Of a stretch of 64,000 nt of DNA, positions 5,301-49,223 are shown one piece after another. The notes under the pieces were generated by a model. It did not search any database, was not told where the DNA came from, and saw only the letters and a list, made by a program, of their open reading frames with translations. The DNA comes from Geobacter sp. SVR (lineage in GTDB: Bacteria; Desulfobacterota; Desulfuromonadia; Geobacterales; Pseudopelobacteraceae), in contig NZ_AP024469.1 of NCBI RefSeq assembly GCF_016865365.1, forward strand, positions 3,130,501 to 3,194,500. The letters run 5' to 3'. Each line of letters opens with the position of its first letter. Within the stretch, counting starts at the first letter, position 1. A program made the translations under genes and the position numbers.

Positions 5301-6719
<1,419 letters not shown>

Positions 6720-7619: not shown

Positions 7620-7651
7620 ATGATTGCCCTTCTCCTTGTTGTCGTGAAACT

Positions 7652-7667
7652 ATTATTTTACAAAATA
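7652..7667. promoter_or_regulatory. AT-rich palindrome upstream of purQ
   Basis: TTATTTT-AC-AAAATAA has perfect seven-base arms and lies 33-48 bases upstream of the purQ start in the recQ-purQ gap. It could be an operator or an AT-rich promoter element. There is no further support. Confidence 0.3.
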
Positions 7668-7695
7668 AAGCGTGACGCTGTCCGTTAGAATATAT

Positions 7696-9543: not shown

Positions 9544-9557
9544 AGTTTCAAAATCCT

Positions 9558-9722
9558 TTCACCACAGAGGACACAGAGGAACACAGAGAGAAAGCACCAT
9601 CCATTTTACAAGGAAACACAGGATTAATGGGATGAATCCAAGCCGTGTCAGAATAAAGCCTACGTATCTTGTCTATCCCTGTTTAGTTTTCCTCTGATTT
9701 CTTCCGTATCCTCCGTGGTGAA
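9558..9722. repeat. Long inverted repeat, CACAGAG family copy 1
   Basis: The left arm TTCACCACAGAGGACACAGA and the right arm, read on the other strand as TTCACCACGGAGGATACGGA, face each other across about 120 bases containing GGATTAATGGGATGAATCC. The element fills the recQ-purL gap. Related elements occur at 15239-15353 and 58758-58920. No coding sequence is present. Confidence 0.7.
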
Positions 9723-9734
9723 GGCTTTGGGGTG

Positions 9735-12725
9735 TTACAGTTCCCGCAGCGTCTTCTGCCACGCTTCCTTCAGCTCCGCCAGTTCCGCCTTGACCACGGA
9801 GCCACCGGCGAGTCCCGTTACAACCAGAGCCTGCTCCTCAGTCACTACACCGATGGAGGCGAAGCAGTTGCCGCTCATGACGGCCTCGAACTGCTCGCGC
9901 TGTTCGGGATGCACGGTAACCAGGTGGCGCGAAGCCGATTCGGAAAACAGCAGCGCTGCATCGGTTTTACCCGCCGTATCCCCTTTCCAGAGCACACGGG
10001 AGAGATCGACAGTCATGCCGAAGCCGCCGGCAAAGGCCGCTTCCGCCGCAGCCACCGCCAGTCCGCCGTCGGACAGGTCGTGACAGGAGGCCACCAGCCC
10101 CTGCACGACTGCCTGGTGGTAGGCCTGGTAGCGCTTGTAGGCACGACCGGTATCGACCTGGGGCACCGTGTTGCCGATGGCTCCCTTGAGCGCCAGATAT
10201 TCCGAGCCACCCAGTTCGTCGCCGGTCTTGCCCAACAGATAGACGATGTCCCCCGAACGCTTGACATCCAGAGTCACCGCCTTGCGGGCGTCCTCGATCT
10301 TGCCGATCACCGAGAAGAGCAGTGTCGGAGGGATCGAGATCTTGACGGCGCCGTCGTAGAAGTCGTTCTTCATGGAGTCCTTGCCGGAGATCAGCGGCAG
10401 GTTGTAGGCCATGCAGATGTCGTAGAGCGCCTGGTTGGAGCGCACCAGCTGGGCCATCTTGTAGGGACCGTCCGGGGTCTTGTCCGACAGGACCGGGTCG
10501 CACCAGCAGAAGTTGTCCAGGCCGGCCACCAGCTCCAGCGAGCCCCCCACGGCAACGTAGTTGCGCAGCGCCTCGTCAATGGCGTTGGCGGTCATATGGT
10601 AGGTGTCGATGTCGGAATAACGCGGGCAGATGCCGTGAGCCGTCACCACCCCTTCGAAGGAGTCCAGGATCGGCCGCACCACGGCCGCATCGGAGGGACC
10701 ATCGTTATTGACCCCCACGAAGGGCTTGACTACCGAGCCCCCCTGAACCTCATGGTCGTAGCGCCGCACCACCGATTCTTTGGAACAGATGTTCAACGAG
10801 GACAGCAACTGCTGCAGATCGCCGGTGTAGTCAGATTTCTGTTCCACAACCGGTTCCGCGTGCTGCGGCGGAGTCCACTTGGCCGGCAGTTGCATGGGGG
10901 GCAGCCCCTCATGCATGAAGTCCATCGGCAGCCAGGCCACGGTGCGGTCGTTGTACAGGATGTGGAACACGCCGCTATCAGTGAACTCGCCCAGCAGGGT
11001 TGCCTCCACGCCGAAACGTTTGGCCATGGCCATGAATTCGTCGATCTTCTGCGGCGGCACGGCCAGGGACATGCGTTCCTGGGCCTCGGAGATCAGGATT
11101 TCCCATGGGTTGAGGCCGGGGTATTTCAGCGGCGCTTTGGCCAGGTCCATGCGGCAGCCGCCGCACTCGCCGGACATCTCGCCGATGGAGGAGGAGAGCC
11201 CACCGGCGCCGTTATCGGTGATGAAACGGTAGAGCCCCTTGTCACGGGCCCGGATCAGGAAGTCGAACATGCGCTTCTGGGTGATGGGATCGCCGATCTG
11301 TACCGCCGTGACCGGCGAGTTCTCGTTCAATTCCTCCGACGAAAAGGTGGCGCCATGGATGCCGTCCTTGCCGATGCGGCCACCGGTCATCACGATCAGG
11401 TCACCCGGCTGGATGGACTTCTCATGCCCGGGCTGACCGTTCAGCTCGGCCGGCATCAGACCGGCCGTGCCGCAGAAGACCAGGGGCTTGCCGGCAAAAC
11501 GGTCGTCAAACACCAGCGAGCCGTTGACAGTCGGAATGCCGCTCTTGTTACCGCCGTGCTCGACACCTTCCACCACCCCTTCGTAGATCCGGCGCGGATG
11601 CAGCAGGCGGCTGGGGAGCGGCTTTTTATAGAACGGATCGGCAAAGCAGAACACGTCGGTGTTGAAGATCAGCTTGGAACCCTGGCCGGTGCCGAACGGG
11701 TCGCGGTTGACCCCCACGATGCCGGTCAAGGCCCCGCCGTAGGGGTCCAGCGCCGACGGAGAGTTGTGGGTTTCGACCTTGAAGACCAGCGAATAGTCGT
11801 CGTTGAAGCGGATCACCCCGGCGTTGTCCTTGAAGACCGACAGGCAGAAATCACGCTCCCCCAATTTTTCGCGCACATCCTTGGTAGTACGCTGGATGAA
11901 GGACTTGAACAGGGACTTGATCTCCTGTTTGTTACCCTGCTCGTCCTCATACTGCACCGTGCCTGCAAAGATCTTGTGCTTGCAGTGCTCGGACCAGGTC
12001 TGGGCCAGGCACTCCAGCTCCACGTCGGTCGGTTTGGCGCCCAGGCCGACCTTGGCACGCACAGCCACTACCTGCGGGTCGCGGTAATGCGCCTGGATGA
12101 TACGCATCTCTTCCAGGGTCAGGGCCAGCACCCCTTCCTTGCTGATGCGCAGCAGCTCATCGTCGGAAACATTCAGGTCGATTTCCTTGACCTCGGCCTT
12201 AACCTCGACCTGTACCTTGGGCACCACCGGCGGAAAGCCGCGCTTGGCCATGAACTCCGCCGCCGAAAGCACGCTGTAGCGTTGGATCAGAGTATTGCAG
12301 AGCAGGCCGGTGGCAATTTTTTCCACGTCAGCGGCAGCAAGCTGCCCCTTCAACAGATACTGCACCGCATAGAAGGCCCCTTGCCCCTCGCCAAAAGGGC
12401 GGCCGGTCAGATACTCGATCGCCTCGCGGGCGGTACGGCCGACATTGTCGGTTACGCCGGGGCGGAAGCCGACCTCCACGGCATAGTCGAATCCTGCGGC
12501 CAGGGGCCTGTCGAGGCTCCAGGTCTGGATGACCGGATCACTGAAGGGGCCGTTGGCCGCCTGTTCCAGTTCAGTCTGCGACAGGTCGGCATCGACGGTA
12601 TAGACGTCGATGGTGCGCACTTCCTCCACCGGCAGGTTCAGAAAATGCTCGATCTCACGCTTGATCCGCTCGCCGCGGGCGTCGCGAACGCCTTCTTTCA
12701 GGGCTATTTCAATTCTGTTGGACAT
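9735..12725 (-). CDS. purL: FGAM synthase PurL with fused PurS-like N-terminus
   Basis: PurL performs the ATP-dependent amidation of FGAR. At 996 residues it lies between the small (about 740) and large (about 1300, with glutaminase) types. Residues about 1-160 contain two PurS-like ferredoxin-fold units (IALKEGVRDARGERI and VEVGFRPGVTDNVGRTA). The synthase core follows with SEHCKHKIFAG, VFKVETHNSPSALDPYGGA, GGRIGKDGIHGATFSS, DNGAGGLSSSIGEMSGECGG and the C-terminal SCHDLSDGGLAVAAAE. The glutaminase is supplied by the separate PurQ. The ATG at 12723-12725 is the first Met. RecQ, not PurQ, is the next gene downstream. Confidence 0.94.
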   Translation of the reverse strand: MSNRIEIALKEGVRDARGERIKREIEHFLNLPVEEVRTIDVYTVDADLSQTELEQAANGPFSDPVIQTWSLDRPLAAGFDYAVEVGFRPGVTDNVGRTAREAIEYLTGRPFGEGQGAFYAVQYLLKGQLAAADVEKIATGLLCNTLIQRYSVLSAAEFMAKRGFPPVVPKVQVEVKAEVKEIDLNVSDDELLRISKEGVLALTLEEMRIIQAHYRDPQVVAVRAKVGLGAKPTDVELECLAQTWSEHCKHKIFAGTVQYEDEQGNKQEIKSLFKSFIQRTTKDVREKLGERDFCLSVFKDNAGVIRFNDDYSLVFKVETHNSPSALDPYGGALTGIVGVNRDPFGTGQGSKLIFNTDVFCFADPFYKKPLPSRLLHPRRIYEGVVEGVEHGGNKSGIPTVNGSLVFDDRFAGKPLVFCGTAGLMPAELNGQPGHEKSIQPGDLIVMTGGRIGKDGIHGATFSSEELNENSPVTAVQIGDPITQKRMFDFLIRARDKGLYRFITDNGAGGLSSSIGEMSGECGGCRMDLAKAPLKYPGLNPWEILISEAQERMSLAVPPQKIDEFMAMAKRFGVEATLLGEFTDSGVFHILYNDRTVAWLPMDFMHEGLPPMQLPAKWTPPQHAEPVVEQKSDYTGDLQQLLSSLNICSKESVVRRYDHEVQGGSVVKPFVGVNNDGPSDAAVVRPILDSFEGVVTAHGICPRYSDIDTYHMTANAIDEALRNYVAVGGSLELVAGLDNFCWCDPVLSDKTPDGPYKMAQLVRSNQALYDICMAYNLPLISGKDSMKNDFYDGAVKISIPPTLLFSVIGKIEDARKAVTLDVKRSGDIVYLLGKTGDELGGSEYLALKGAIGNTVPQVDTGRAYKRYQAYHQAVVQGLVASCHDLSDGGLAVAAAEAAFAGGFGMTVDLSRVLWKGDTAGKTDAALLFSESASRHLVTVHPEQREQFEAVMSGNCFASIGVVTEEQALVVTGLAGGSVVKAELAELKEAWQKTLREL

Positions 12726-34454: not shown

Positions 34455-35585
34455 ATGATGATCGTCTACGCCGTGATTGCCTTGGGTGTGCTGATTTTCG
34501 TGCACGAACTGGGGCATTTTCTGGTTGCGAAACTGTTCAATGTCAAAGTAGAGAAGTTCTCGCTCGGGTTCGGTCCCAAGCTGCTCGGCAAGCGGATCGG
34601 AGAAACCGAATATCTGCTGTCGGCCTTCCCGCTGGGGGGCTATGTCAAGATGTTCGGAGAGACCGGCTTCATCGAAGGGAGCGACGCTCCGGCAGCCATC
34701 GACCAGGCTGGAGAGCAATTCAAGGAGCAGGAACCGCGCGAATTGACGGAAGAGGAAAAGAAACGTTCATTCTTCCACAAGCCTCCCTTGGCCAGAATCG
34801 CCATCGTGATTGCAGGGCCGACCTTCAACCTGCTGTTCGCCTGGCTGGCCTTCATCGTGCTCTGCATGCTGGGCGTGCCGACTGTCACCCCCCGCATCGG
34901 CGAGGTACTGAAGGACAAGCCTGCAGCCATGGCAGGCATCCTGAAAGGCGATGTCGTCACCGCCATAGACGGCAAACCGGTAACCCGCTGGGACGAGATC
35001 GCCGAAAAAATTACCGCCAGCAAGGGGCGGCCGATCAGCCTGACGGTCAAGCGGGGCGCCGAAGAGGTTGGCTTCACCGTCACTCCGCAGCCGCGCGTCG
35101 CCCAGAACCTGTTCGGTGAGAAGGTCGAAGGTTTCGCCATCGGTGTGGCCTCGGCCGGCGAGGTCGTCGTCGAAAAGTTCGGGCCGGTACAGGCGCTGTC
35201 CAAGGGAAGCGACCAGACCTGGAAAGTGATCGATCTGACCATCATGTCGCTGGTCAAGATGGCCCAGCGGGTCGTGCCGCTGGATACGGTGGGCGGGCCG
35301 ATCATGATCGTCAAGATGGCCGGAGAGCAGGCCTCGGCCGGCGGCTCGAGCTTTCTGGCATTCATGGCGCTGCTCTCGATCAACCTGGGGGTGCTGAACC
35401 TCCTGCCGGTGCCGGTGCTCGATGGCGGGCATCTCTTCTTCTACTTCTGGGAGTTGATCTTCCGCCGACCGGTCAATCCAAAGGTGCGCGAATATGCCCA
35501 GCAGGTGGGGCTGATGCTGCTGCTGGGGCTGATGGCCCTGGCATTCTACAACGATATCGTCAGGTACTTCACCGGCCAGGGATAG
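34455..35585 (+). CDS. rseP: RIP site-2 zinc metalloprotease RseP/RasP
   Basis: RseP cuts membrane-embedded anti-sigma factors and signal peptides. The 376-residue inner-membrane protein has HELGHF at residues about 16-21, one PDZ domain (about 130-200: RIGEVLKDKPAAMAGILKGDVVTAIDG) and the second catalytic motif NLLPVPVLDGGHLFFYFWE near residue 315. E. coli RseP has two PDZ domains. The single one here is the Bacillus-type layout. The gene ends the array, followed by the hairpin at 35613-35650. Confidence 0.95.
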   Translation: MMIVYAVIALGVLIFVHELGHFLVAKLFNVKVEKFSLGFGPKLLGKRIGETEYLLSAFPLGGYVKMFGETGFIEGSDAPAAIDQAGEQFKEQEPRELTEEEKKRSFFHKPPLARIAIVIAGPTFNLLFAWLAFIVLCMLGVPTVTPRIGEVLKDKPAAMAGILKGDVVTAIDGKPVTRWDEIAEKITASKGRPISLTVKRGAEEVGFTVTPQPRVAQNLFGEKVEGFAIGVASAGEVVVEKFGPVQALSKGSDQTWKVIDLTIMSLVKMAQRVVPLDTVGGPIMIVKMAGEQASAGGSSFLAFMALLSINLGVLNLLPVPVLDGGHLFFYFWELIFRRPVNPKVREYAQQVGLMLLLGLMALAFYNDIVRYFTGQG

Positions 35586-35675: not shown

Positions 35676-37976
35676 CTATGCGTGGGAAGGAAACTTCCTC
35701 GCCAGATCGTTATCGATGACATAGACGCAGACTTCCCGGGCCCCCTGCTTGGTGTAGTGGTACTTGGGGGCGCACAGGTTGCTGATCAGAAACGACACGT
35801 CGTCGCGGATCCGTTTATCGTAGGAATTGAAGGCGGCCGTGTCGTAGTCCTTGATGGCCCGGCGGAAGTTGACGTTGTCCAGGAACGGTTCCAACACCTT
35901 CTCCTTCAGGCTGTGAAGGTAGCGTTCGTGCAGCGACTGGTACAGTCCGGTCTGGCGGGGATCGATCCCCTCGGCCAGTATCTCCTGGGTCAGGGTGCGC
36001 GAGGCGTATTCCTTCTGGGTCTCCCGACGGAACGCCAGCCGGGCGTCCGCATCAACGGCCGGGCCGATCAACCGCCCCTCGATGGCGCTCAGAAACTCGT
36101 CCGTAATCTCCAGTTTATCGCCGGTGAAACGGCAGACCGCCACGGAACCGGACTCGAAGTTGACCGCAAACATGTAGTTCAGAAGATCCCGGCTAATCTG
36201 CTCCTCATTGTAGTAGTACAGCGATTCCTTCACCTCCTGCAGCACCGCATAGTCATAGTTCCTGATCAGCGAATCCAGGAAGCCGGGGGGCAACATCTCG
36301 TTCAGGTCGGTGCGCCACTTGGTGAAGAACGAATTGAGGTTGGACATGGAGATCAGCTTGTCCTTGCGGGCATAGGCAGCATAAAAGTCGCCGAAGATCC
36401 TGATCGAATCGCGGCCGGAAAAGCCGGTCACCCCTTCGTACTCGGACTCGTCGATGATCCGCCGCCGCCGTTTGGCGCTCAGGCGCTTGCGATCCTCTTC
36501 CGAGAGCCAGGAGGGGAGATACCCGGTATAGAGCTCCATCTTGAGAAGCTGCAGGTGCTCGTCGCAGTACTGCTCGTACTTGCGCGGGTCGCTGATCCAG
36601 TCCAGCATGGCGTCCGAATGGGTACCCATCCGGGTTGAAATGATCGTGCGGGCGAAGTTGTGCAGCACCCGGGGAATGAAGCTCTCGTCGATATGCTTGC
36701 CAAAGGTGTTGCGATAGATCTCCACCTCGGTGTTCAGGTCCATGACGTAGGGGATATTGATGAACTCGATCCGGTCGCTGAAGGACTGGAAACCTTCGAT
36801 GTTCTTTTCGTCCTCCGGGTTCATCAGGGCGATGAACAGCGACTTGACGTTCTCCTCCACATCCTCGACCTTGTGAATCCCCTCGCTGATGATGTTGTGC
36901 AGTTCCAGCAGACGCTGGGCGTTGTGGGACTTGACATCCATCAGGGCATAGATGCCGTTGTTGGTCTTCGCCAGACTGGAATAGAGATACCTGACCGCAT
37001 TGCTGTCCCCCAGCAGCGAGTCGATCTTGCGCTGGAGATGCTCGTTGCCGCTCACATCCTGTTTCATCTGCCGGTCACCCGGAGTGAACACCGTGATGCC
37101 CTCCCCCACCCGCCGATTAAAGCGGTAGGGGCGCGCATGGATCATGCGATAGATGTCGAGGGAAGTGGAGACGTTCCTGATCAGGGCATCGAACAGGGAA
37201 CTGCAGATGGTGCAGGGGGTATCGCTCAGCACCCAGTCATATTCCTTGTGACTGAAGAGCCTTTCCCTGAACGCCTCGTTGTCATGGAACAGGTCGCTGA
37301 AAAAGGAATGCCGGTCCTTTTTGGGAATCAGCAACAAGGGATTGTCATGTGAGGGACAAGGCACATCGATATAATCCCCGCTGCGGCTCAGAGAGTTCTT
37401 TATCTCGGCCAGGTCGGCCTGCCCCAGTTCGTATTCGTCCAGAAGACTCGACAGCCGGTCCACGAATGAGGAAACCTGGGTGGCATTGATCCGCGCCAGG
37501 ACCCGGCGATCCAGCCTCCACACCACTTCGTAGCGCGTACCCGCCTCGCTGTTCGAGTACTCTTCGAATTTCATGAGCAGATTGTTCAAAAAGGTGCTCT
37601 TGCCGGAACCGGGGGGACCTTCGAAGATATAGATCTTGTTCTGCCGCACGCTGCTCTTCATGGCCTCCACATGGTTAACCAGCCGGTTGGCGAACAACCG
37701 GTCCGCAAAGAAGGGGCGGTCGGTACCGTCGACAAACAGGCTGCGGCAATCGTAGCTGACGTAGTTGATCGACTCCGGGTCTTCCGGGTATTCGTCGCGG
37801 CCGATCCCCACATGGGAGCGGATCATGTCGTGAAAAGCCTGGAAGACATTGCGCACAACCGACTCAGGCCGCTCGGTCAGTACCTCCAGAAACTCGTCGA
37901 AGGAGATGCTCTGGCTCTGCTCGCGCTCGCTGATCTTGCGGTTGAGATTCGCTATGGCCCGCTCCACGTTGGTCAT
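35676..37976 (-). CDS. Second, divergent PrkA-like AAA+ ATPase / putative serine kinase
   Basis: The 766-residue protein has Walker A IFEGPPGSGKSTFLNNLL near residue 117, an acidic N-terminus (FDEFLEVLTERPESVV), ALMNPEDEKNIEG and SDRIEFINIPYVMDLNTEVEIYRN in the AAA core, and a long C-terminal region ending in a basic helix. Layout and gene context resemble PrkA (YeaG), but it is longer and differs from the 684-residue PrkA at 41310 almost everywhere outside the ATPase core. It is the last gene of prkA-yhbH-spoVR-this gene, 17 bases after spoVR. Whether it phosphorylates proteins cannot be seen. It may be an ATPase partner of PrkA. Confidence 0.75.
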   Translation of the reverse strand: MTNVERAIANLNRKISEREQSQSISFDEFLEVLTERPESVVRNVFQAFHDMIRSHVGIGRDEYPEDPESINYVSYDCRSLFVDGTDRPFFADRLFANRLVNHVEAMKSSVRQNKIYIFEGPPGSGKSTFLNNLLMKFEEYSNSEAGTRYEVVWRLDRRVLARINATQVSSFVDRLSSLLDEYELGQADLAEIKNSLSRSGDYIDVPCPSHDNPLLLIPKKDRHSFFSDLFHDNEAFRERLFSHKEYDWVLSDTPCTICSSLFDALIRNVSTSLDIYRMIHARPYRFNRRVGEGITVFTPGDRQMKQDVSGNEHLQRKIDSLLGDSNAVRYLYSSLAKTNNGIYALMDVKSHNAQRLLELHNIISEGIHKVEDVEENVKSLFIALMNPEDEKNIEGFQSFSDRIEFINIPYVMDLNTEVEIYRNTFGKHIDESFIPRVLHNFARTIISTRMGTHSDAMLDWISDPRKYEQYCDEHLQLLKMELYTGYLPSWLSEEDRKRLSAKRRRRIIDESEYEGVTGFSGRDSIRIFGDFYAAYARKDKLISMSNLNSFFTKWRTDLNEMLPPGFLDSLIRNYDYAVLQEVKESLYYYNEEQISRDLLNYMFAVNFESGSVAVCRFTGDKLEITDEFLSAIEGRLIGPAVDADARLAFRRETQKEYASRTLTQEILAEGIDPRQTGLYQSLHERYLHSLKEKVLEPFLDNVNFRRAIKDYDTAAFNSYDKRIRDDVSFLISNLCAPKYHYTKQGAREVCVYVIDNDLARKFPSHA

Positions 37977-37993
37977 AATTCACCGATACAGGC

Positions 37994-39628
37994 TCAAGCC
38001 TGCCCAATTTTCTTTCTTGTCAGCACCTTTCCCTCCATCGAATAGATCACCCGTTCCCAGGTAATCGCCTCCTGCGGGACTTCCTCATGGCTTCCCGAGG
38101 GTTGCGGCACGAGTCTGGCGTCGGTGGTTTCCAGATGCACCGGCCGTCCCCACAGGTACTCGATGCCCATCATGGTATTGGCGATGTATTCCCGCACCAG
38201 TTGCTTGCCTTCGAAGGTGTGCTTCAGATGGAGCTCGCCATCCCCCTCTCCGGCCGGCTCCACGGTGATGACCGGGGGATGGTAGAGCGTATCCCTGACC
38301 ATCCTGCTGTAATCCTGGGCCTTCCTGGACTTGACGTAGTATTGCCAGACCATGCGCTGACGGTCCAGGCGCTTGCCGGCCACAAAAAAACTGTGCCGGT
38401 CCAGAAACTCCTGGTCCAGGAAGTTGCTGACAAAGAGGTGGTCGCTCAGATTTTCCCGTACCCTGAAGATGGTTTCCAGTCCATCGGGACGCTTCTGGTC
38501 GTAATCCTCACGCTTCTTACGGTCCAGGACGCGCTCGAAATCATAGGAGAGTCGCCCCTTGTCCGCCTGTTCCTCGATGTAGCTGAAAAGCCGCATGCCC
38601 AGGGCATAGGGATTCATGCCCACCCTCGGCATGGAGGTGACGCCGGCGTGAACCCGGGCAAAATCGATCTCATGCCCCTTGATGCGGTCGTCCTGCAGAA
38701 ACAGCTTTTCATGCCAGTAGCTGGCCCAGCCTTCATTGAGAATCTTCGTACGGATCTGGGGCTGGAAGAAGATCGAGGTTTTGCGGACTATTTCCACGAT
38801 CGACTTCATCCACTTGTTCTCGTCCCGGTTCAGGAATTCGGACCGGTCCAGCAGATACCGGAGCAGGTCGCGCCGGGTGGTGGGGCGTACCTGCTGGTCC
38901 CTGACGAAATAGCTTTCCAACTCGGGAAAGCGCCGTTCGGCGTCGGCGAAAAAGGTCTTCTCCGCCAGGGGTGCGTCGAACCGCTTCAGACAGTCGTTGT
39001 AGCGGTTGACCTCCTTGATGTACTCGCTGATCGGCAGCTTCTTGACCACTTGCAGGAACTGGTCGAAATAGTAGTTGAGCCGGGGTGAGCAGCCCCCTTC
39101 CGACGGGGTGAACAGGGCCGACAGTTCGCCGTGAAAATCGACCAGGTTGTCGATGCCCCGGGCGAATTCGATCACGTAATCGACCCAGTGCCCCTTTTCG
39201 GCGCGCAGTTTGGCGATCACCCGCTTGTCCGACAAGGCCTCGCCGTTGAAGTCGTAGTCCCAGGTGTGGCGGAAATTGAGATTGTTCTGAAAAAAATCGA
39301 TGTGCCCCAGCACGTGATAGAAAATCATCACGTTCAGCCAGTCGGGGTTGTTGTCGTTGTAAAACGAGATCGGCGGCCGGGTGTTGATCACCGTTTCATA
39401 GGGATTATGCGGATACAGTTCGTACTTGCCCTTCTCGCGCAGCACCTCGACGTCATGGACCCAGTAATCGTACAGGGTCGGAATCATCACCTTGGGTCCC
39501 AGCTCCAGCAGGTCGCGGTTGGTGACGATATACTCCAGGCTCTCGTCGGTGAAGCGCAGACCAGCCGCCCGGGCCCGCTCCTTGCAGCCTTCCATGATAG
39601 CTTTGGTATGCTGGTTAATCAGTTCCAT
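37994..39628 (-). CDS. SpoVR family protein (YcgB-like)
   Basis: The 544-residue protein has the SpoVR opening (YDYWVHDVEVLREKGKYELY, PHNPYETVINTRPPISFYND) and the conserved NEGWASYWHEKLFLQD, HAGVTSMPRVGMNPYALGMRLF and VSNFLDQEFLDRHSFF. SpoVR affects spore cortex formation in Bacillus. In non-sporeformers its homologue YcgB is grouped with yeaG/yeaH stress genes. The biochemical role is unknown. The NEGWASYWHE motif suggests a metal-binding region. It lies between yhbH and the second PrkA-like gene. Confidence 0.92.
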   Translation of the reverse strand: MELINQHTKAIMEGCKERARAAGLRFTDESLEYIVTNRDLLELGPKVMIPTLYDYWVHDVEVLREKGKYELYPHNPYETVINTRPPISFYNDNNPDWLNVMIFYHVLGHIDFFQNNLNFRHTWDYDFNGEALSDKRVIAKLRAEKGHWVDYVIEFARGIDNLVDFHGELSALFTPSEGGCSPRLNYYFDQFLQVVKKLPISEYIKEVNRYNDCLKRFDAPLAEKTFFADAERRFPELESYFVRDQQVRPTTRRDLLRYLLDRSEFLNRDENKWMKSIVEIVRKTSIFFQPQIRTKILNEGWASYWHEKLFLQDDRIKGHEIDFARVHAGVTSMPRVGMNPYALGMRLFSYIEEQADKGRLSYDFERVLDRKKREDYDQKRPDGLETIFRVRENLSDHLFVSNFLDQEFLDRHSFFVAGKRLDRQRMVWQYYVKSRKAQDYSRMVRDTLYHPPVITVEPAGEGDGELHLKHTFEGKQLVREYIANTMMGIEYLWGRPVHLETTDARLVPQPSGSHEEVPQEAITWERVIYSMEGKVLTRKKIGQA

Positions 39629-39661
39629 ACGAGTTATCCCGGTTTTCTTCTGGAGTGGTTA

Positions 39662-39759
39662 TTTTTCGTCCTGGCCAGGCTGTCGAGGGATTGCGCGGAG
39701 GCGTAGCAGCGCTACGCCGCACAAGGGATCCCGAAGATTTACGCCGCCAGGGCGGAAAA
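39662..39759. repeat. Palindromic intergenic repeat, GCGTAGC family copy 2
   Basis: TTTTCGTCCTGGC at the left pairs with GCCAGGGCGGAAAA at the right, and the centre is a perfect GGCGTAGC-AGC-GCTACGCC stem (39700-39718). It fills the yhbH-spoVR gap. Confidence 0.8.
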
Positions 39760-39770
39760 GAGCCGCTCCT

Positions 39771-41177
39771 CTACGAGATCAACCTCTTGATCCCCTCTAT
39801 CAGCCTCGGCTCATCCGCATCCTCCTGCATCACATCCATCCTGATCAGATTGGCCCGTTCCTTCAGCAACCCCGAGTCCTCCAGGTAGCGTGCCACCTCG
39901 GTAATACCGGGCTGGCCAAAGCCGTGCTCCGCGACGGTGACACCCACCCGGCTGACATAGGCAAGCATCTTCTCCAGCTCGGGAATGGCCAGTTGGCCGC
40001 GGGAATCCCAATCGTCGCCATCGGTGCCGTGGAAAACATAGATGTTGTAATCGTTGGCCAGGTTTCCCTTGGCCACCATCTCATTCACCAACTGATAGGC
40101 GCCAGCGACCTGGGTGCCCCCTGCCACGCGCGAATTGTAGTAGGTGTAAAAGTCCGGCACCTCCTTGGCCTCGGTGTCGTGGAGGATGAAGCGGCACTCC
40201 ACCTGGCCGGCGTACTGGTACAGGAGCCAGCTGTAGATCAGGATATGCTGGGTGACCACCAGATCGGTCACCTTGCCGGCCATGGAGCCGGAATAGTCGC
40301 GCAGAAAGAAAACCATGGCCTGGGGCTCGTAGTCCTTTTCCTGCGAAAACACGCGGTAAACCTTGTCGCGCGGGGCAATCATGAAGCGTGACGGATCGAT
40401 GTCTGCCACATCGGGAATGTTGCCCAAGGCGCTGTTGGTTTCGATGATCCTGCGCAGGGTCGCCTTCTTGTCGAGGATCTGACCCACGCCGCGGTTCCTG
40501 TCGGTCAAGTCGTAGGTATAACGGGTGAAGGAGACCTTCTTGCCCTTCTCCTTCAGGTTCGGCAACTGGAACTGTTCGGTCAGGGTCTTGCCCAGCTCGT
40601 AGGCCGAAGATTCGATCTCGTGTTTCTCCCCCTCCCCCTGCCCCGGGCCGGCACCCGGCTCTTCCCCTTCCTGCCGGGCCTGTTGTTCGCCGAACACCTC
40701 CCCTTCCTGTTCATCGCCGGTTCCCCCTGAAGCACGCCCCTCATCTTCTTCCGGCTGAACGCTGGGGTCATGGTAAAATTTCTCCTCCACCGTGGAGGGG
40801 ACCACCACGGTGACCGCCCCCTGGGCGCCCCGTCTGGCCTTTACCAGCCGGCCGAGCTGGATCTTGCGCGGGAAACCGTCCTCTTCGCGCTGGCGGTCGC
40901 GCTCCAGCAGCTCATCCAGCGATTTCATCAGCCCCACGGTGCCGTACTGCGGGTTGTCGGCCTGGCGCAGCACCATCAGGTCGTTGAAGGCATAAACGCT
41001 GCGGTCGAAGCCGGAGAACGGGCTGTCCTGTTTCGCAACGGGGGGCGGAAGCACGTGGTCGACGCCTGCCGTTGCCAGTTCGGCCCGCAGCCGCACCTCC
41101 CGCTCGGGAGACAGCCCGGCTGCCTTCAGCTCTTCCAGGTTTTTTTTTAGATCTTTTTCCATAGAAAATCCGGACAC
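39771..41177 (-). CDS. YhbH/YeaH (DUF444) family VWA-like protein
   Basis: The 468-residue protein has a flexible Gly/Glu-rich middle (about residues 140-190), followed by VSFTRYTYDLTDRNRGVGQIL and a von Willebrand A-type metal motif FLRDYSGSMAGKV (DxSxS, near residue 290) and GTQVAGAYQLVNEM. DUF444 proteins are encoded beside PrkA across bacteria and bind or are phosphorylated by it in some systems. The start is uncertain. The GTG at 41175-41177 or the ATG five codons later is possible, and neither has a strong Shine-Dalgarno, perhaps because the upstream palindrome intervenes. Confidence 0.9.
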   Translation of the reverse strand: MSGFSMEKDLKKNLEELKAAGLSPEREVRLRAELATAGVDHVLPPPVAKQDSPFSGFDRSVYAFNDLMVLRQADNPQYGTVGLMKSLDELLERDRQREEDGFPRKIQLGRLVKARRGAQGAVTVVVPSTVEEKFYHDPSVQPEEDEGRASGGTGDEQEGEVFGEQQARQEGEEPGAGPGQGEGEKHEIESSAYELGKTLTEQFQLPNLKEKGKKVSFTRYTYDLTDRNRGVGQILDKKATLRRIIETNSALGNIPDVADIDPSRFMIAPRDKVYRVFSQEKDYEPQAMVFFLRDYSGSMAGKVTDLVVTQHILIYSWLLYQYAGQVECRFILHDTEAKEVPDFYTYYNSRVAGGTQVAGAYQLVNEMVAKGNLANDYNIYVFHGTDGDDWDSRGQLAIPELEKMLAYVSRVGVTVAEHGFGQPGITEVARYLEDSGLLKERANLIRMDVMQEDADEPRLIEGIKRLIS

Positions 41178-41191
41178 TCAGAAAACGCAGA

Positions 41192-41295
41192 TTCTCGTCC
41201 CGGCAAGGCTTTCGAGGGAGGCCACGGAGGCGCAGTACCCTAAAGCGCTACGCCGCACACGGCATCCCGAAGACTTACACAGCCAAGGCGGAAAA
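41192..41295. repeat. Palindromic intergenic repeat, GCGTAGC family copy 3
   Basis: It follows the same order as copy 2: TCGTCCCGGCAAGGC, TCGAGGGA, GGAGGCG, a degenerate centre, GCGCTACGCCGCAC, CATCCCGAAGACTTAC, GCCAAGGCGGAAAA. It fills the prkA-yhbH gap. Confidence 0.8.
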
Positions 41296-41309
41296 AGCCG
41301 CGTTTCCCA

Positions 41310-43364
41310 TCAGGTTTCGTCTTCCTGGGTGCAGAAGTATTCAATCGTCTTCTGCGCACAGGTCCGGCAATACCCCAGCTTGTTCAGCATGGTGTTGATC
41401 ATCCGATCGTACAGCTTCTGGTTTTCCTCATTGGTGCGGTTGGCCAGAGCCCCGATCAGGCTGCCGGCACCGGCGATATCCGATTTCAGGCGTACATCCG
41501 TGACCGCCTTGACCAGTTCCAGGTTATCCATGAAGTCGTAGTTGGGGTCCACGGAGATTTTCTGGCCGTAGATCTTGCGGATCGAGGTGCGGAACGAATC
41601 GCGCTGTTCCTCGGTCTTCAGGCCGATACGCTCTTCCACGCTCCTGACGTAGCGCTCGTCGATCTTGAGCGCCCGCAGCTCGCCGGACTGGGGGTCCTTG
41701 TACTTCCACATCCGGTCCGGCCCCAGGTTCTCCGCATCGATCCCGATGATCATGTTGACGTAGTTCATGACATCCTTGCGGATGGCAAAGGGCTCATCCA
41801 TGTAGGCGTTGAACATCTCGGTCATGATCCGTTCGCGGTAGAGCCCCTTGGCGATCTTCAGATCCTCCAGGTATTTGGCCCGATCATTGGTGTCGACCAC
41901 ATAATCCAGCACCACCCGCTCCAGGGACTTGAAAATGTCGTAGGCCACCATGCAGCGCCCTTCGTTGGTCTCGGAATTCTCCACCAGCAGCTGGACCGCC
42001 CGTCCCAGACTGCGGTGCCCCAGCCCCTTCTGGCCGAAACGCTTGGTGATATCGGGCTCCTGTCCCAGGGTATCGATCACCTCCGCCAGGGCCTTGATGC
42101 TTTTCTCCCCGGCGATCTCGCCGGCCGAAAGCTTCATGATCTCGATCGGGGTCAGCTTTTCCGAGCGCGGGAAGCGGGTCAGCACCACCCCTACTGAGGC
42201 GGCGTAGTTCAGGTTGGGGTCCTGGTGCAGGTCTTCGTTGGTCAGAGTCGTCTTGGTGTCGCTGCCGATGGCGTAGGAGGTCAGCCCTTCCTGCAGGCGG
42301 TAGTTGGTGTTATGGGAGACATAGCAGATCCGGCAGCGGTCCACGATCGGCGCCTCCTCCCGCTCCGCCAGGAAGCGGTTGAATTCGGAGTTGTTGCTGG
42401 TGGCGATGATCAGGGAATCGATCGGCCATTTGTAGCCGTCGATCTCGATGGCACGGTTCTGGATCACGCCCAGATACACCTGGACCAGGTCTTTCTTGTT
42501 CTTGAAGATCTCGTCCGAAAAATGAATGCCGCCGCCTGCCACGCGGGCCAGGGCGCCACGGCGCAGGTCGAAGCGGTAGGGGTTGTTGGTGTCGCTGATG
42601 TGCAGCAGCCGCTGGATCGATTCCTCTCCCAGCAGATCCACCGAAGAGGAGGTGATCTTGTCTTTGGCCGGATACTTGCCGGTGATGGTGCCCAGGCTTT
42701 CGCTCATCGGTACCGGGATCACCTCGACGTGATTGAACATGCGCTCGGGATCGTTGTCGCAAAAGGCGCGGATCTCGCTCCAGATATAGCCGCTGCAGGC
42801 CCCCAGCGGCCGGTAGTTCTGATAGAGGGTATCCAGCTGCGCTTCGCTGAAACCGCCCTGCTCCGCCAGAAAGCGGCGATTCTCGTCGTTTGTTTCAAAG
42901 AGGTTCATAGCCAGGATCATCGGATCTTCGTAGGTCTGGGAATCGATCACGTCGATCTTGCCGTAATGCCCGAGCTGGCTCAGTCCGGTATAACGGAAAG
43001 TGTAGCGCCGGTTGCGCGGCGTTGTCAGAAAGCCTCGGTACTGGGAACAGAGAAATTCAACGAAAAAGGTCTTGCCGTTGCCGGGCTCTCCCACCAGGAC
43101 ATAGGCCATCTCCTTGCTGGAGCCCCCTTCGGCGGCATCCTTCACGTAGGAGACGAAACTGTTGATCTCGTCGAACATGCCGATGGTATGCTTCCTGCCG
43201 ACGCGGAAGATCTTGAAGTCGTAGGTTGTTCGGCCGTTGACCACTACCTTTTCGAAGCCAGCGCCCAGGATCATGCGGGCCACTGACTGGAATGCATTCT
43301 CGAAGACCCGTGTATCCGCTTGTACCGCGCTGATATGCTGAATCAGCTTCTCGTAGGCAGCCAT
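41310..43364 (-). CDS. prkA: PrkA serine protein kinase / AAA+ ATPase (YeaG)
   Basis: The 684-residue protein has Walker A VLVGEPGNGKTFFVEFLC near residue 89, the PrkA core with GALARVAGGGIHFSDEIFKNKKDL and SLIIATSNNSEFNRFL, ITKRFGQKGLGHRSLGRAV, and the C-terminal kinase-like part (PDRMWKYKDPQSGELRALKIDE, YDFMDNLELVKAVTDV). It ends GYCRTCAQKTIEYFC, a CxxC-like tail. PrkA/YeaG is linked to stationary-phase and nitrogen-starvation stress, and to sporulation in Bacillus. The ATG has GGAGG six bases upstream. It heads a four-gene run with yhbH, spoVR and another PrkA-like ATPase. Confidence 0.93.
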   Translation of the reverse strand: MAAYEKLIQHISAVQADTRVFENAFQSVARMILGAGFEKVVVNGRTTYDFKIFRVGRKHTIGMFDEINSFVSYVKDAAEGGSSKEMAYVLVGEPGNGKTFFVEFLCSQYRGFLTTPRNRRYTFRYTGLSQLGHYGKIDVIDSQTYEDPMILAMNLFETNDENRRFLAEQGGFSEAQLDTLYQNYRPLGACSGYIWSEIRAFCDNDPERMFNHVEVIPVPMSESLGTITGKYPAKDKITSSSVDLLGEESIQRLLHISDTNNPYRFDLRRGALARVAGGGIHFSDEIFKNKKDLVQVYLGVIQNRAIEIDGYKWPIDSLIIATSNNSEFNRFLAEREEAPIVDRCRICYVSHNTNYRLQEGLTSYAIGSDTKTTLTNEDLHQDPNLNYAASVGVVLTRFPRSEKLTPIEIMKLSAGEIAGEKSIKALAEVIDTLGQEPDITKRFGQKGLGHRSLGRAVQLLVENSETNEGRCMVAYDIFKSLERVVLDYVVDTNDRAKYLEDLKIAKGLYRERIMTEMFNAYMDEPFAIRKDVMNYVNMIIGIDAENLGPDRMWKYKDPQSGELRALKIDERYVRSVEERIGLKTEEQRDSFRTSIRKIYGQKISVDPNYDFMDNLELVKAVTDVRLKSDIAGAGSLIGALANRTNEENQKLYDRMINTMLNKLGYCRTCAQKTIEYFCTQEDET

Positions 43365-43475: not shown

Positions 43476-43499
43476 ACATGTCCGACGTGGCTGACATGT
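43476..43499. promoter_or_regulatory. Inverted repeat upstream of tsaB
   Basis: ACATGTC and GACATGT flank a ten-base spacer in the prkA-tsaB divergent region, about 110 bases upstream of tsaB. It could be an operator. No protein is assigned. Confidence 0.35.
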
Positions 43500-43603
43500 C
43501 CCCCCATGGTGGGCAGCTCCGAAGGATGATGCGCCTTGCCTCGGGGAAAATTTCGGGATACAGTGAGGACGCTTTCCCGACTCCCGCATCCGAAAGACAT
43601 GCC

Positions 43604-44305
43604 ATGTATATCCTGAGTATCGATACCTCGACCGCACTGGCCAGTGTGGCGCTTGCAACGGAAGAAAAGGTGCTGGCCGAATCCCTGCTGCCTGCCGAGC
43701 GGTGCCTGTCGGCGCGGCTCGTGCCGGAAATCGAGCGGCTTCTGGCGATGGCCGGAGTGACTATCGGCCAGATCGACCTGTTTGCAAGCGCCATCGGCCC
43801 CGGCTCCTTTACCGGGGTGCGCGCCGGTGTGGCCACCGTACAGGGCTTGGCGCTCTCCACCGGTAAACCGTGCGCAGGCTTCTCCACCCTGGCTGCCCTG
43901 GCCATGAACCTGAGCCTCGTCTCCCGGCCGGTCTGCGCCCTGCTCGATGCCCGCAAGCAGGAGGTCTACGGCGGGCTTTACGACTGTTCCCTCCCCCTTC
44001 CCACGGCACTGATCGAGGACTGCGTCATGCCTCCGGCCACTCTGGCCGAAATGATCTGCGCCCACACCGCCGAACCGGTCATCTTCCTCGGTGAGGGCGC
44101 CCTGCGCTACCGCGACCTGATCGCCTCCCGGATGGGGGCGCAGGCCATCTTCGCCCCCTCCTCCCACCACGCCGGCCGTGCCGCCAACGGCATCCTGCTG
44201 GCCCTGGCCACATACCATGCAGGACGAACCGTTCCACCGGACAGACTGCTGCCGGTCTACATCCGCCCCTCCGAGGCCGAACTGGCCCGCCAGAAGAAAC
44301 AATAA
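43604..44305 (+). CDS. tsaB: tRNA t6A synthesis protein TsaB
   Basis: TsaB is the inactive Kae1-like partner of TsaD in making t6A37 on ANN-decoding tRNAs. The 233-residue actin-fold protein starts MYILSIDTSTALASVALATE, followed by SARLVPEIERLLAMAGVTIG, GPGSFTGVRAGVATVQGLAL and ARKQEVYGGLYD. The ATG at 43604 matches the family N-terminus. Forty-two in-frame upstream residues are unlike the family. The Shine-Dalgarno is weak. tsaB stands alone, between the prkA cluster and the sucCD operon. Confidence 0.94.
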   Translation: MYILSIDTSTALASVALATEEKVLAESLLPAERCLSARLVPEIERLLAMAGVTIGQIDLFASAIGPGSFTGVRAGVATVQGLALSTGKPCAGFSTLAALAMNLSLVSRPVCALLDARKQEVYGGLYDCSLPLPTALIEDCVMPPATLAEMICAHTAEPVIFLGEGALRYRDLIASRMGAQAIFAPSSHHAGRAANGILLALATYHAGRTVPPDRLLPVYIRPSEAELARQKKQ

Positions 44306-44467: not shown

Positions 44468-45343
44468 TTATTTTGGCGTATACACCTTCAGCAGTGCCTG
44501 TGCCATATCGGCCGGGCTGGCTGCCACACTGATGCCGCATTCCTCCAAGACCGCCACCTTTTCAGCAGCAGTACCCTTGCCGCCCGAGATGATCGCGCCG
44601 GCATGGCCCATGCGCTTGCCCGGAGGGGCAGTGCGGCCGGCGATGAAGGCGGCTACCGGTTTGGTCATGTGTTCTTTGACGAAACGCGCTGCTTCCTCTT
44701 CGGCGTTGCCGCCGATTTCGCCGATCATGATGACCGCTTCGGTGTTGGGGTCTTCTTCGAACATGCGCAGGCAGTCGATGTGGCTGGTGCCGTTGACCGG
44801 GTCACCCCCGATGCCGACGCAGGTGGATTGGCCGATGCCCAGGCTGGTGAGCTGCCAGACAGCTTCGTAGGTGAGGGTGCCGGAGCGAGAGACAACGCCC
44901 ACTTTGCCCGGTTTGTGGATGTAGCCGGGCATGATGCCGATTTTGCATTCGCCGGGGGTGATGATGCCGGGGCAGTTGGGACCGATCAGGCGGGTCCCTT
45001 TGCCGGCCATGTAGTGTTTGACTTTGACCATGTCCAGGACCGGGATGCCTTCCGTGATGCAGCAGACCAGTTCGATGCCGGCGTCGACCGCTTCCATGAT
45101 GGCGTCGGCGGCGTAGGGGGGCGGGACGTAGATGACCGAGGCGGTGGCGCCGGCTTTGTCGACCGCTTCTTTGACGGTGTCGAAGACCGGGAAGCCGTCG
45201 ATGCTGGTGCCCCCTTTGCCGGGGGTGACGCCCCCTACCATCTGCGTGCCGTATTCGCGAGCCCCTTGGGCGTGGAACAGACCGGTGGCGCCGGTGATGC
45301 CCTGGGTGATGACTCTGGTGTGTTTGTCGACGAGGATGCTCAT
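44468..45343 (-). CDS. sucD: Succinyl-CoA synthetase alpha subunit (copy 1)
   Basis: SucD carries the CoA site and the phospho-His of the ADP/GDP-linked succinyl-CoA to succinate step. The 291-residue protein starts [21 protein letters not shown], with [54 protein letters not shown] and [14 protein letters not shown]. The active His is in [18 protein letters not shown]. The ATG at 45341-45343 overlaps the sucC stop. A longer in-frame extension is only shadow of sucC. Confidence 0.95.
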
Positions 45344-46512
45344 CAGTTGGCTCCTTTCACGGCTGCGACGATTTTCTGAGCCGCGTCGGCCATGCCGTCG
45401 GCGGTGACTATGTTGAGGCCGCTTTCGGCCAGCATCTGTTTGCCCAGGGCGACGTTGGTGCCTTCCAGGCGGACCACCAGCGGGACTTTGATGCCGACCT
45501 GTTTGGCCGCTTCGACGACGCCGGTGGCGATGACGTCGCATTTCATGATGCCGCCGAAGATGTTGACCAGGATGCCTTTGACGTTGGCGTCCGAGAGGAT
45601 GATTTTGAAGGCTTCGGTGACCCGTTCGATGGTGGCTCCGCCGCCGACGTCCAGAAAGTTGGCCGGGTCGCCGCCGTAGTGTTTGATGATGTCCATGGTG
45701 GCCATGGCCAGGCCTGCGCCGTTGACCAGGCAGCCGATGTTGCCGGTAAGCGAGATGTAGGAGAGGTCGTATTGGGAGGCTTCGATTTCGTTGTGGTCTT
45801 CTTCGTCGTAGTCGCGCAGGTCGGCGATTTTGGGATGGCGGAAGAGGGCGTTGTCGTCAAAGCCGAATTTGGCGTCCAGGGCCAGGAGGTTGTTTTCGGC
45901 GGTGACCACCAGGGGGTTGATTTCTAAAAGCGAGCAGTCGCAGGCGATGAAGGTGGTGTAGAGCCCTTCCAGCAGTTTGACCGCTTTGTTGATCAGTTTG
46001 CCGTCCAGGCCGAGGCTGAAGGCGATTTTGCGGCACTGGAAGGGGGTCAGGCCCACCAGGGGGTCAACCGCTTCCATGAAGATTTTCTCGGGAGTTTTGG
46101 CAGCCACTTCCTCGATGTCCATGCCCCCTTCGGTGGAGGCCATGACCGTGACTTTGGAGGTGGCGCGGTCCACCAGCAGGCTGACGTAGAGTTCGTTGGC
46201 GATGTTGCAGCCTTCTTCCACCAGGACCCGTTTGACCAGTTTGCCTTCCGGTCCGGTCTGGTGGGTGACCAGGGTCATGCCCAGCATTTCGCGGGCCAGG
46301 TCGCGCACTTCGTTGGGGGTGCGGGCCAGTTTGACTCCGCCACCTTTGCCGCGGCCGCCGGCATGGATCTGGGCCTTGACCACCCAGGGGCCTTCTCCCA
46401 GGCGCTTGGACCATTCACGCGCGCTGGCGCTGTTGTAGATGACATGACCGTCGGGAACGGGTACGCCGAAACTCCTCAATATCCCTTTCGCCTGATACTC
46501 GTGAATATTCAT
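45343..46512 (-). CDS. sucC: Succinyl-CoA synthetase beta subunit (copy 1)
   Basis: The 389-residue ATP-grasp subunit opens [37 protein letters not shown] is the nucleotide loop, with [55 protein letters not shown] and [20 protein letters not shown]. It is a standard SucC. Together with sucD it forms a coupled pair, divergent from a second, related pair at 47040-49223. The operon would serve the TCA cycle in either direction. Confidence 0.95.
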
Positions 46513-47039
46513 GGCAACTCCTTGTTCCGGCTCGCCGGAAATAATGGCATTTCAACCGCAAAGACGGCCAGGGCCGCAGCGTCTCTGCACCGGCTCCTGA
46601 ATCCGTGAATCCTTCCAGCCTTGACTCTCTCTCCTGCCTGTAGTTCCCGTTTTCCGGTATGGGAGCCATTTCGTCGCGACAAGGCGGCCTCGCCGGTACT
46701 TAAGCGCAGCCCTCATGCCCCCACTTCCGCTTCACTGCCACAGATTCATGCCAGCTCTGGTGGAATCACGGTTCCATAGAAAAAAAGCGAATAAAAGTCG
46801 ACCCACTCCTGATAAACACAGTAAAATTTTAGTGAAAATAAAAATACTCCGCATTACTACCATGTTTTTTAATTATTGCAAAACATTTTTCGCCTTTTTC
46901 GGAAACACGTTTCCCCTGGTGAAACCAGAATCCACATCATTTAAAATTATTCATACAATCATTGACTCTCACTCCCAACCTGTTATGTTTAATGAAGATC
47001 GACATTGCCGTTCTTATTCCGTCGCACATGGAGAACACG
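46513..47039. other. Divergent control region between the two sucCD operons
   Basis: There is no gene in this 527-base gap. The left half (46553-46620) has a GC-rich stretch that looks like degenerate intergenic repeat. From about 46780 the DNA is AT-rich, as is usual for promoters. A TTTTAGTGAAAATAAAA stretch (about 46828-46844) resembles half of the pyc-ilvE palindrome at 26496. Confidence 0.5.
46962..46989 (+). promoter_or_regulatory. Predicted sigma-70 promoter for the second sucCD operon
   Basis: TTGACT (46962-46967) and TATGTT (46984-46989) are 16 bases apart, giving a leader of about 45 bases before the ATG at 47040. Confidence 0.5.
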
Positions 47040-48200
<1,161 letters not shown>

Positions 48201-48212
<12 letters not shown>

Positions 48213-48261
48213 GTCGGGATTAGGAAGCTTTTTCTCAACCTCAACCTTAACCTCGACCTGG
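48201..48261. repeat. Pyrimidine-tract inverted repeat, copy 2 (between paralogous genes)
   Basis: CAGGTCGAG at the left pairs with CTCGACCTG at the right, and 48231-48254 is identical to 44431-44454. The element overlaps the very end of the sucC paralogue and fills the gap. Confidence 0.7.
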
Positions 48262-48281
48262 TCGACTGCAAGGAGACCACC

Positions 48282-49223
48282 ATGTCCATACTGATCGACA
48301 AAAACTCCCGGGTCATCGTCCAGGGGATTACCGGGCGCAGCGGGCTGTTCCACACCAAGCAGTGCCGGGCCTACGGCACCAATATCGTGGCAGGCGTCAC
48401 CCCCGGCAAGGGGGGCATCCACATCGATGGCATCCCGGTTTTCAATACGGTGGAGGAGGCGGTGCGCTATACCCGGGCCAATGTCTCGATGATCTTCGTT
48501 CCTCCCCCCGCAGCGGCCGATGCCATCCTAGAGTCCTGCGCCGCGGGGCTGGACTTGGCAGTCTGCATAACCGAAGGCATTCCGGTGCGCGACATGGTGC
48601 TGGCCCGGGCGGTCCAGAAGGAGAGCAGCACCCGTCTGGTCGGTCCCAACTGCCCCGGCGTCATCACGCCGGGAGAATGCAAACTGGGCATCATGCCGGG
48701 CTACATCCACACCCCTGGCAGGATCGGGGTGGTGTCCCGCAGTGGCACCCTGACCTACGAAGCGGTCAAGCAGCTCACGGATCTGGGGTTGGGGCAGTCG
48801 ACCTGCGTCGGCATCGGCGGCGACCCGATTATCGGCATGAAGTTCATCGACACGCTGCAGCTGTTCAACGATGATCCGCAGACCGAGGCGGTCTTCATGA
48901 TCGGCGAGATCGGCGGCGGGGCAGAAGAAGAAGCGGCTTACTGGATAAAAGAAAATATGAAGAAGCCGGTGGCAGCGTTCATAGCCGGTGTAACCGCACC
49001 GCCGGGCAAGCGCATGGGGCATGCCGGCGCCATCATCACCGGCGGCAAAGGCAGGGCGGCAGACAAGATCCGCACCCTGCAGGAGTGCGGGGTGGTGGTG
49101 TCCCCCAGTCCGACACGCATCGGCGAGACCATGCGTGAGGCGCTGCAGGCGGCGGGAAAACCTGTTGTCAGCGCACCGGCCAGGACCGGCACAAAGCCGG
49201 CCGTGAAAAGGTCAAAGAAATAG
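48282..49223 (+). CDS. Succinyl-CoA synthetase-type alpha subunit (paralogue, Lys-rich tail)
   Basis: This 313-residue SucD-like protein starts [21 protein letters not shown], with [40 protein letters not shown] and the phospho-His in [19 protein letters not shown]. After the normal end it has about 22 extra residues ([17 protein letters not shown]), basic and probably disordered. GCAAGGAG precedes the ATG. It is the partner of the SucC paralogue upstream. The substrate is not certain. Confidence 0.85.

Follow-up and report, generated by a model that had tools for sequence, protein, structure and literature searches.

Why should a bacterial PrkA cluster contain two PrkA genes instead of one? 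The question was raised by a stretch of 64,000 nucleotides from Geobacter sp. SVR (contig NZ_AP024469.1, positions 3,130,501 to 3,194,500 of the forward strand), which is called the window below. The PrkA-YhbH-SpoVR set occurs across bacteria and archaea, with ties to starvation, stress and sporulation. The initial annotation of the window described this set together with a fourth gene, encoding a 766-residue AAA+ protein with the Walker A motif GPPGSGKS, and supposed a cascade or a heteromeric complex of two ATPases. The four genes and the motif were confirmed by open reading frames and Pfam matches: PrkA1, DUF444 (YhbH), SpoVR and PrkA2 are co-directional on the minus strand and fill positions 35676-43364 of the window. 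The three families of the PrkA-DUF444-SpoVR module thus adjoin on one strand. However, the ordinary module has one PrkA of the ordinary group, and the window has two, both outside that group. We give an even chance to the reading that the four genes make up a self-contained variant of the module, with two specialised paralogs that replace the single PrkA and form one mixed machine. One mixed machine is suggested because one copy has an intact and the other an altered ATP-splitting site.

The genome is a single contig of 4.72 Mb, and both the window and the whole genome were searched with profiles. The curated Pfam cut-off is 25 bits for PF06798 and for AAA_PrkA (PF08298). PrkA2 scored 166.3 bits with PF06798, which was higher than the 134 bits of PrkA1, and 37.6 bits with AAA_PrkA. 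Judged by these scores, the 766-residue protein is a member of the PrkA family, beyond a mere diverged AAA+ protein. This corrects the initial annotation, which described it as an AAA+ protein diverged from PrkA. PrkA1 and PrkA2 were the only two PF06798 matches in the whole genome, with no third.

The occurrence of the pair was studied in an order-level sample of 58 genomes, including that of the window. PF06798 had no match in 29 of the 58 genomes and exactly two matches in each of the other 29. In 27 of these 29, a single contig carried both matches no more than 6 kb apart; in G048 and G055 they lay on separate contigs. A search with the PrkA2 protein was positive for 24 of 57 genomes, that of the window among them, with fragments only in G028 and G033. 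The order PrkA1-DUF444-SpoVR-PrkA2 was kept in 20 of 20 neighbourhoods from relatives; the locus L041 ends before PrkA1. Furthermore, the survey of operons that had been proposed with the annotation was performed on the best 80 of 373 PrkA2 relatives (the named loci). The complete set, in one order and on one strand, was present in 58 of the 80, namely 57 loci with exactly four genes and L148, mostly from Geobacter- and Desulfo-type bacteria by name. The absence from relatives that would have spoken against the four-gene set was therefore not observed, although half of the order's sample lacks PrkA altogether. Conservation across relatives also ruled out a chance open reading frame or a local oddity as the origin of PrkA2.

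The median intergenic gaps were 72, 55 and 14 bp in the 57 loci, in which no fifth conserved gene was found. The largest shared cluster of neighbours occurred in 27 loci, on both strands and both sides, and appeared to consist of sensor proteins as judged only by eye from one example sequence. No strict match to a sigma-54 promoter was found in the 57 stretches upstream of PrkA1, the window included, and a looser pattern matched 1 of the 57. Among the 22 remaining named loci, PrkA2 started less than 3 kb from the locus start in 18, too near the end to tell. In L139 (Desulfonema magnum), PrkA1 was about 25 kb away from PrkA2, and for L160 a PrkA1-type match was found on another contig; the last two loci, L158 and L165, are weighed below. 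A second, cut copy of SpoVR-PrkA2 was seen in L148 (positions 1-3543), directly upstream of its complete four-gene set.

At the phylum level, PF06798 was present in 24 of 198 genomes, of which 11 had the ordinary type only (one of them with two), 12 had the pair, and G093 had a very divergent pair as judged by score. Among 82 genomes from the phylum to which the KSB1 genome G270 belongs, PF06798 was present in 30, 28 with the ordinary type and two with the pair (G270 and G288). The four-gene order of G270, G288 and UASB270 was identical to that of the window. No genome of these samples had both module types (13 pair vs 11 ordinary, and 2 vs 28). Mutual exclusion of the two types is not claimed, because less than one overlap was expected by chance in each sample. 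In G201, the four genes were split between two places of one contig (L086 and L087), and a fragment with a match to the PrkA family end lay at a third place, which points to a rearrangement or an assembly fault.

The two PrkAs of the window shared 23% identity over 214 amino acids (E 0.001). In profile comparisons, PrkA2 and PrkA1 matched ordinary PrkA end to end, with E values of 2.6e-32 over 595 columns and 8.7e-35 over 603 columns, respectively, and PrkA1 matched PrkA2 with 4.7e-5 over 227 columns only. A tree of 50 PrkA rows, rooted at the midpoint only and otherwise unrooted, contained groups of PrkA1 (13 rows), PrkA2 (19 rows) and ordinary PrkA (16 rows) with supports of 100/100, 100/100 and 99/95, respectively. 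A recent duplication of PrkA, which was the other possibility that could have undone the initial annotation, was ruled out by the low identity and the three-group tree, and the profile comparisons were in agreement. Moreover, DUF444 (18 vs 15 rows) and SpoVR (18 vs 14 rows) were split along the same line in quick trees (Shimodaira–Hasegawa-like approximate likelihood ratio test 99 and 100). By these trees, DUF444 and SpoVR have diverged together with the PrkA pair. The mean pairwise identity in the 57 loci was 0.83 for PrkA1, the most conserved of the four proteins, vs 0.68-0.69 for the others.

The active-site motifs were counted in 71 PrkA1 rows (67 distinct) and 113 PrkA2 rows (98 distinct), near-copies included. 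The Walker B region of ordinary PrkA was GxxEFxE, and its final Glu was invariant in 12 aligned proteins. The corresponding pattern was GGIHFxDE in PrkA1 and NGIYALMD[VI] in PrkA2, where residues 344-346 and 348 were never acidic. D347 of PrkA2 aligns with the invariant Glu of the 12 ordinary PrkAs, so that an Asp stands in the Glu position in 113 of 113 rows and the catalytic Walker B Glu of ordinary PrkA is missing from PrkA2. In every row of both proteins, the Lys of Walker A was kept, and so was the arginine at the finger position, which belongs to a 'DR' motif; in PrkA2 the putative arginine finger is R402 (113/113). The sensor-1 Asn and a later arginine at the sensor-2 position were also kept in both, with one PrkA2 row gapped at sensor-1. 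The sensor-1, arginine-finger and sensor-2 roles of these residues are presumed from AAA+ proteins in general.

The Cys/His set of PrkA2 was distributed in the opposite way. CPxH, present throughout PrkA2 and in 9 of 16 ordinary PrkAs, was found in none of the PrkA1 rows, and the C-terminal CxxC, present throughout PrkA1 and in 12 of 16 ordinary PrkAs, was found in none of the PrkA2 rows. At the level of motifs, the loss is complementary between the two PrkAs: PrkA1 has an intact Walker B DE without the CPxH/CxxC set, and PrkA2 has the reverse. The Cys/His set of PrkA2 is probably metal-binding, with zinc as the candidate metal. These features could also be expected of a pure regulator outside the ring, a pseudo-ATPase that senses ATP, metal or redox state through CPxH/CxxC and switches a PrkA1 machine, since the Walker B motif of PrkA2 is changed in 113 of 113 rows, Walker A is kept and the Cys/His set is conserved. 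However, an AAA+ arginine finger works mainly within a ring, and the conserved R402 would be of use mainly there, so we regard such a regulator as improbable.

We infer a mixed machine in which PrkA1, with intact Walker A, Walker B DE, sensor-1 Asn and arginine finger, would hydrolyse ATP. PrkA2, with Met-Asp at Walker B and with Walker A, sensor-1 Asn and arginine finger kept, would be a slow or non-hydrolysing subunit of weak ATPase activity that retains the probable metal-binding site, possibly for zinc. The two would assemble as a hetero-oligomer into one mixed AAA+ ring. DUF444, a predicted VWA protein with a metal ion-dependent adhesion site (MIDAS) motif, would couple the ring to SpoVR as the client, and by a logic like that of NorQ/NorD, ATP would drive the remodelling or metal loading of this target through the VWA adaptor. 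A mixed ring is supported by the near-fixed pairing, the single gene order and the short gaps, and likewise by the deep split, the joint divergence of the genes and the complementary loss of sites. The heteromeric complex was the better half of the initial suggestion, and it fits the complementary loss of motifs.

The main alternative is that two separate homomeric AAA+ machines share DUF444 and SpoVR and act on other clients or under other conditions, as sub-functionalised duplicates. Walker A, the sensor-1 Asn, the arginine finger and both PrkA domains are kept in each protein, so each could form a ring alone. However, the PrkAs are fixed as a pair in one cluster with complementary site loss, no doubled DUF444 was found in the 80 named loci, and a doubled SpoVR was found only in L148, with its cut copy. 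Two homomeric machines are thus considered unlikely.

The other half of the initial suggestion, a kinase cascade in which one PrkA phosphorylates the other or DUF444 or SpoVR, was the least likely explanation, and we regard it as very improbable. It agrees with the family name and with the in vitro finding that a 60-kDa protein was phosphorylated by B. subtilis PrkA, as told in a later report (PMC13001217, in part; citations so marked refer to portions of the source). However, the same portions describe the biochemistry of PrkA as unsettled, the protein having been named a kinase, a protease or neither. The kinase label is doubtful there, as purified B. anthracis PrkA had no detected kinase activity and negligible protease activity, and its kinase-like region is described there as lacking a P-loop. 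In addition, the conserved motifs found in the present study were of the AAA+ type, and none of the four proteins matched a protein kinase family in Pfam besides the PrkA family itself.

A structure model of PrkA2 was built with 34 aligned sequences (mean predicted local distance difference test score, pLDDT, 78.6). VIA-align matched it to NorQ and NorQ-NorD VWA complexes with Z 9.3-10.3 and to AfCbbQ2 with Z 9.5. The AAA+ core is clear in the model, and the AAA+ clade was left undecided by the fold matches. Two strands (residues 367-370 and 373-376; block pLDDT 59 and 66) were predicted between Walker B and sensor 1. This low-confidence candidate for a pre-sensor-1 hairpin and the VWA partner would fit the MoxR/BchI side and not clade III, in which Bacillus PrkA has been placed (PMC13001217, in part). 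The solved structures 9xip, 9xiq and 9xir, which are PrkA relatives by sequence, were absent among the fold-search matches listed.

DUF444, as the second gene of the operon, has been assigned as a VWA protein (PMC3188799, in part). For SpoVR, the conservation of HxxGH and NEGWAxxxH suggests a metal site. By the pattern applied, similar motifs were present in ordinary SpoVR proteins, the HVLGH type in 11 of 14 and the NEGWASYWH type in 13 of 14.

Several points weigh against a mixed ring that acts on SpoVR. PrkA2 may still hydrolyse ATP with an Asp in the catalytic position, and ordinary PrkA is also without the Walker B Asp. Purified B. anthracis PrkA was a monomer, with oligomeric species in the presence of ATP (PMC13001217, in part). 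PrkA2 occurred without PrkA1 in two of six genomes checked (G267 and G268); one of the two loci, L158, in whose genome only PrkA2 was found, has 200 N in it, and PrkA1 was not found in the genome of L165. Foldseek matched the PrkA2 model to AAA+ proteins (among them Lon-like proteins, BchI and a NorQ chain), none with E <=0.001, and ORC (Z 10.4) and NSF/Sec18 (up to 9.9) tied with NorQ in VIA-align. The PrkA tree has long stems and no true root, with PrkA1, PrkA2 and the second PrkA of locus L088 (L088b) on one side of the midpoint; the origin of the PrkA1/PrkA2 pair is unsettled by the tree because of the midpoint root. The model of SpoVR was of low quality (pLDDT 62) and had no structural match, so that its metal site rests on motif conservation. 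Moreover, B. subtilis SpoVR has been reported to bind RNA (PMC12456014, in part), which is unexplained by an AAA+/VWA machine.

The very divergent set of G093 (L088, positions 3031-10645) had the same order, PrkA-DUF444-SpoVR-PrkA. Its second PrkA had His-Asp at Walker B, with Asp in the Glu position, and carried a PrkA2-like GYSKQGA tail, and its first PrkA (L088a) carried a PrkA1-like GYCGKC tail. The MIDAS of its DUF444 was not found with the pattern used. In the tree, L088a joined ordinary PrkA and L088b joined PrkA1, both on long branches; in the approximately unbiased test, the placement of L088b with PrkA2 (p 0.239) and that of L088a with PrkA1 (p 0.172) were both not rejected. A wider reading is offered tentatively. 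The heteromeric ring, with PrkA1 hydrolysing and PrkA2 structural, metal-binding and impaired in hydrolysis, would divide the sites of an ancestral PrkA. DUF444 and SpoVR would complete a four-part AAA+/VWA machine for the metal loading or remodelling of SpoVR, and L088 and the two-PrkA cluster of haloarchaea would be branches of one ancient split. In a search of plasmids, the first PrkA of L088 matched ordinary PrkAs and the second matched nothing.

PrkA2 itself had no match in the plasmid collection. The 73 plasmid records with an ordinary PrkA match all bear bacterial names, with none from haloarchaea. Seven weak matches to PrkA2 were found in phages, none covering 80%, and its carriage by plasmids or phages was rejected. 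Ordinary PrkA was matched in 16 phage records, including 11 Thermus phages and three uncultured phages of 634-642 kb, and a Ralstonia jumbo phage has been reported with PrkA and SpoVR genes (PMC8504454, in part). An anti-phage system was rejected as PADLOC gave weak matches only.

The positions of the four genes, their motifs and the adjoining genes are listed in Table 1. Housekeeping genes occupy both flanks: tsf, pyrH-like, frr, uppS-like, cdsA-like, dxr and rseP (M50 protease) on one, and tsaB-like and succinyl-CoA-ligase-like genes on the other, all named from Pfam matches. In 14 related genomes tested, rseP and tsaB were adjacent in five (G020, G022, G041, G045 and G056), had the four-gene set between them in three (that of the window, G002 and G006) and were apart in the other six. 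The four-gene set may move as one block, because rseP and tsaB were adjacent in some genomes and separated by the set in others. Beyond tsaB, two succinyl-CoA-ligase-like gene pairs of opposite orientation (ATP-grasp and CoA-binding subunits) are found next to each other at 44468-46512 (minus strand) and 46962-49223 (plus strand).

Table 1. Features of the four-gene cluster and its immediate neighbours, in window coordinates.
Feature	Position	Strand	Match or conservation
PrkA1, PrkA-family AAA+ protein, 684 aa	41310..43364	-	PF06798 134 bits, AAA_PrkA 44 bits
PrkA1 Walker A GEPGNGKT, residues 92-99	43068..43091	-	identical eight letters in 71/71
PrkA1 Walker B GGIHFSDEI, residues 278-286	42507..42533	-	D284 and E285 in 71/71
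PrkA1 C-terminal CxxC (C666, C669)	41358..41369	-	71/71 PrkA1; tail pattern 0/113 PrkA2
DUF444/YhbH protein, 468 aa	39771..41177	-	PF04285 112 bits; NF003712 734 bits (cut-off 421)
DUF444 MIDAS-like DYSGS, residues 294-298	40284..40298	-	strict pattern in at least 76/92
SpoVR family protein, 544 aa	37994..39628	-	PF04293 204 bits; SpoVR_C 33.5 bits
SpoVR HVLGH, residues 105-109, possible metal site	39302..39316	-	pattern 103/105; H105 and H109 invariant in 30 aligned
SpoVR NEGWASYWH, residues 298-306	38711..38737	-	103/105
PrkA2, second PrkA-family AAA+ protein, 766 aa	35676..37976	-	PF06798 166 bits, AAA_PrkA 37.6 bits
PrkA2 Walker A GPPGSGKS, residues 120-127	37596..37619	-	K126 in 113/113
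PrkA2 CPSH, residues 207-210, half of possible zinc site	37347..37358	-	C207 and H210 in 113/113; CPxH 0/71 PrkA1
PrkA2 CTIC, residues 255-258, other half of possible zinc site	37203..37214	-	C255 and C258 in 113/113
PrkA2 altered Walker B NGIYALMDV, residues 340-348	36933..36959	-	M346 and D347 in 113/113
rseP	34455-35585		flanks four-gene set
tsaB	43478-44305		flanks four-gene set

Compared with the ordinary module, as represented by Bacillus PrkA, YeaG/YeaH/YcgB of E. coli and the prkA operon of Rhizobium etli, the window contained the same three families. Nine ordinary loci (L089-L097) had the order PrkA-DUF444-SpoVR on one strand, and their MIDAS and SpoVR motifs were mostly common to the set of the window; in the E. 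coli stretch (L203), no SpoVR adjoined the PrkA gene. The difference was the number of PrkAs, one vs two, with the proteins in separate groups of the tree. A natural variant with unequal ATPase and Cys/His sites shows which sites need not share one subunit, and it makes the question of whether PrkA is an AAA+ remodeller or a kinase directly testable. MCM2-7, ORC and BchI/BchD are examples of heteromeric AAA+ rings in which active and altered subunits are combined. These have paralogous subunits with unequal ATPase sites; the likeness is one of analogy only.

The MoxR-type pairs NorQ-NorD, RavA-ViaA, CbbQ-CbbO and BchI-BchD also combine an AAA+ protein with a VWA partner, and an adjoining MIDAS-bearing VWA gene was found in the window (DYSGS in DUF444; VWA label per PMC3188799, in part). 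However, their families appear to be different: with AAA_5, the nearest such Pfam model listed (cut-off 22), PrkA1 scored 21.1 bits and PrkA2 14.7 bits, both below the cut-off. In the structural comparison of PrkA2, NorQ and CbbQ ranked with the best matches, level with ORC and NSF. In NorQ/NorD, the VWA protein reaches into the NorQ pore with a finger, and a twisting force makes it possible to insert the metal (PMC13036017, in part). By analogy, NorQ/NorD is a model for the logic of the proposed machine and not for its family.

The closest precedent was found in haloarchaea, where a 2011 study of ten genomes described a pair of PrkA-related kinase genes next to each other, invariably accompanied by DUF444 and SpoVR, in every haloarchaeal genome (PMC3102087, in part); a prkA2 has also been named in Haloquadratum (PMC9684190, in part). 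Likened by description only, this cluster has two PrkAs with DUF444 and SpoVR, as in the window. However, the haloarchaeal PrkA genes are adjacent (PMC3102087, in part), whereas DUF444-SpoVR lies between the two PrkA genes in the window and in 58 of the 80 named loci. Given this precedent, the combination of two PrkAs with DUF444 and SpoVR is in itself not novel. No report of a bacterial two-PrkA set was found among the matches listed in the open-licence literature. As far as the literature searched goes, what is new is the bacterial version: its gene order is different, the pairing is nearly fixed, the four genes have diverged together, and the two PrkAs complement each other in the sites lost.

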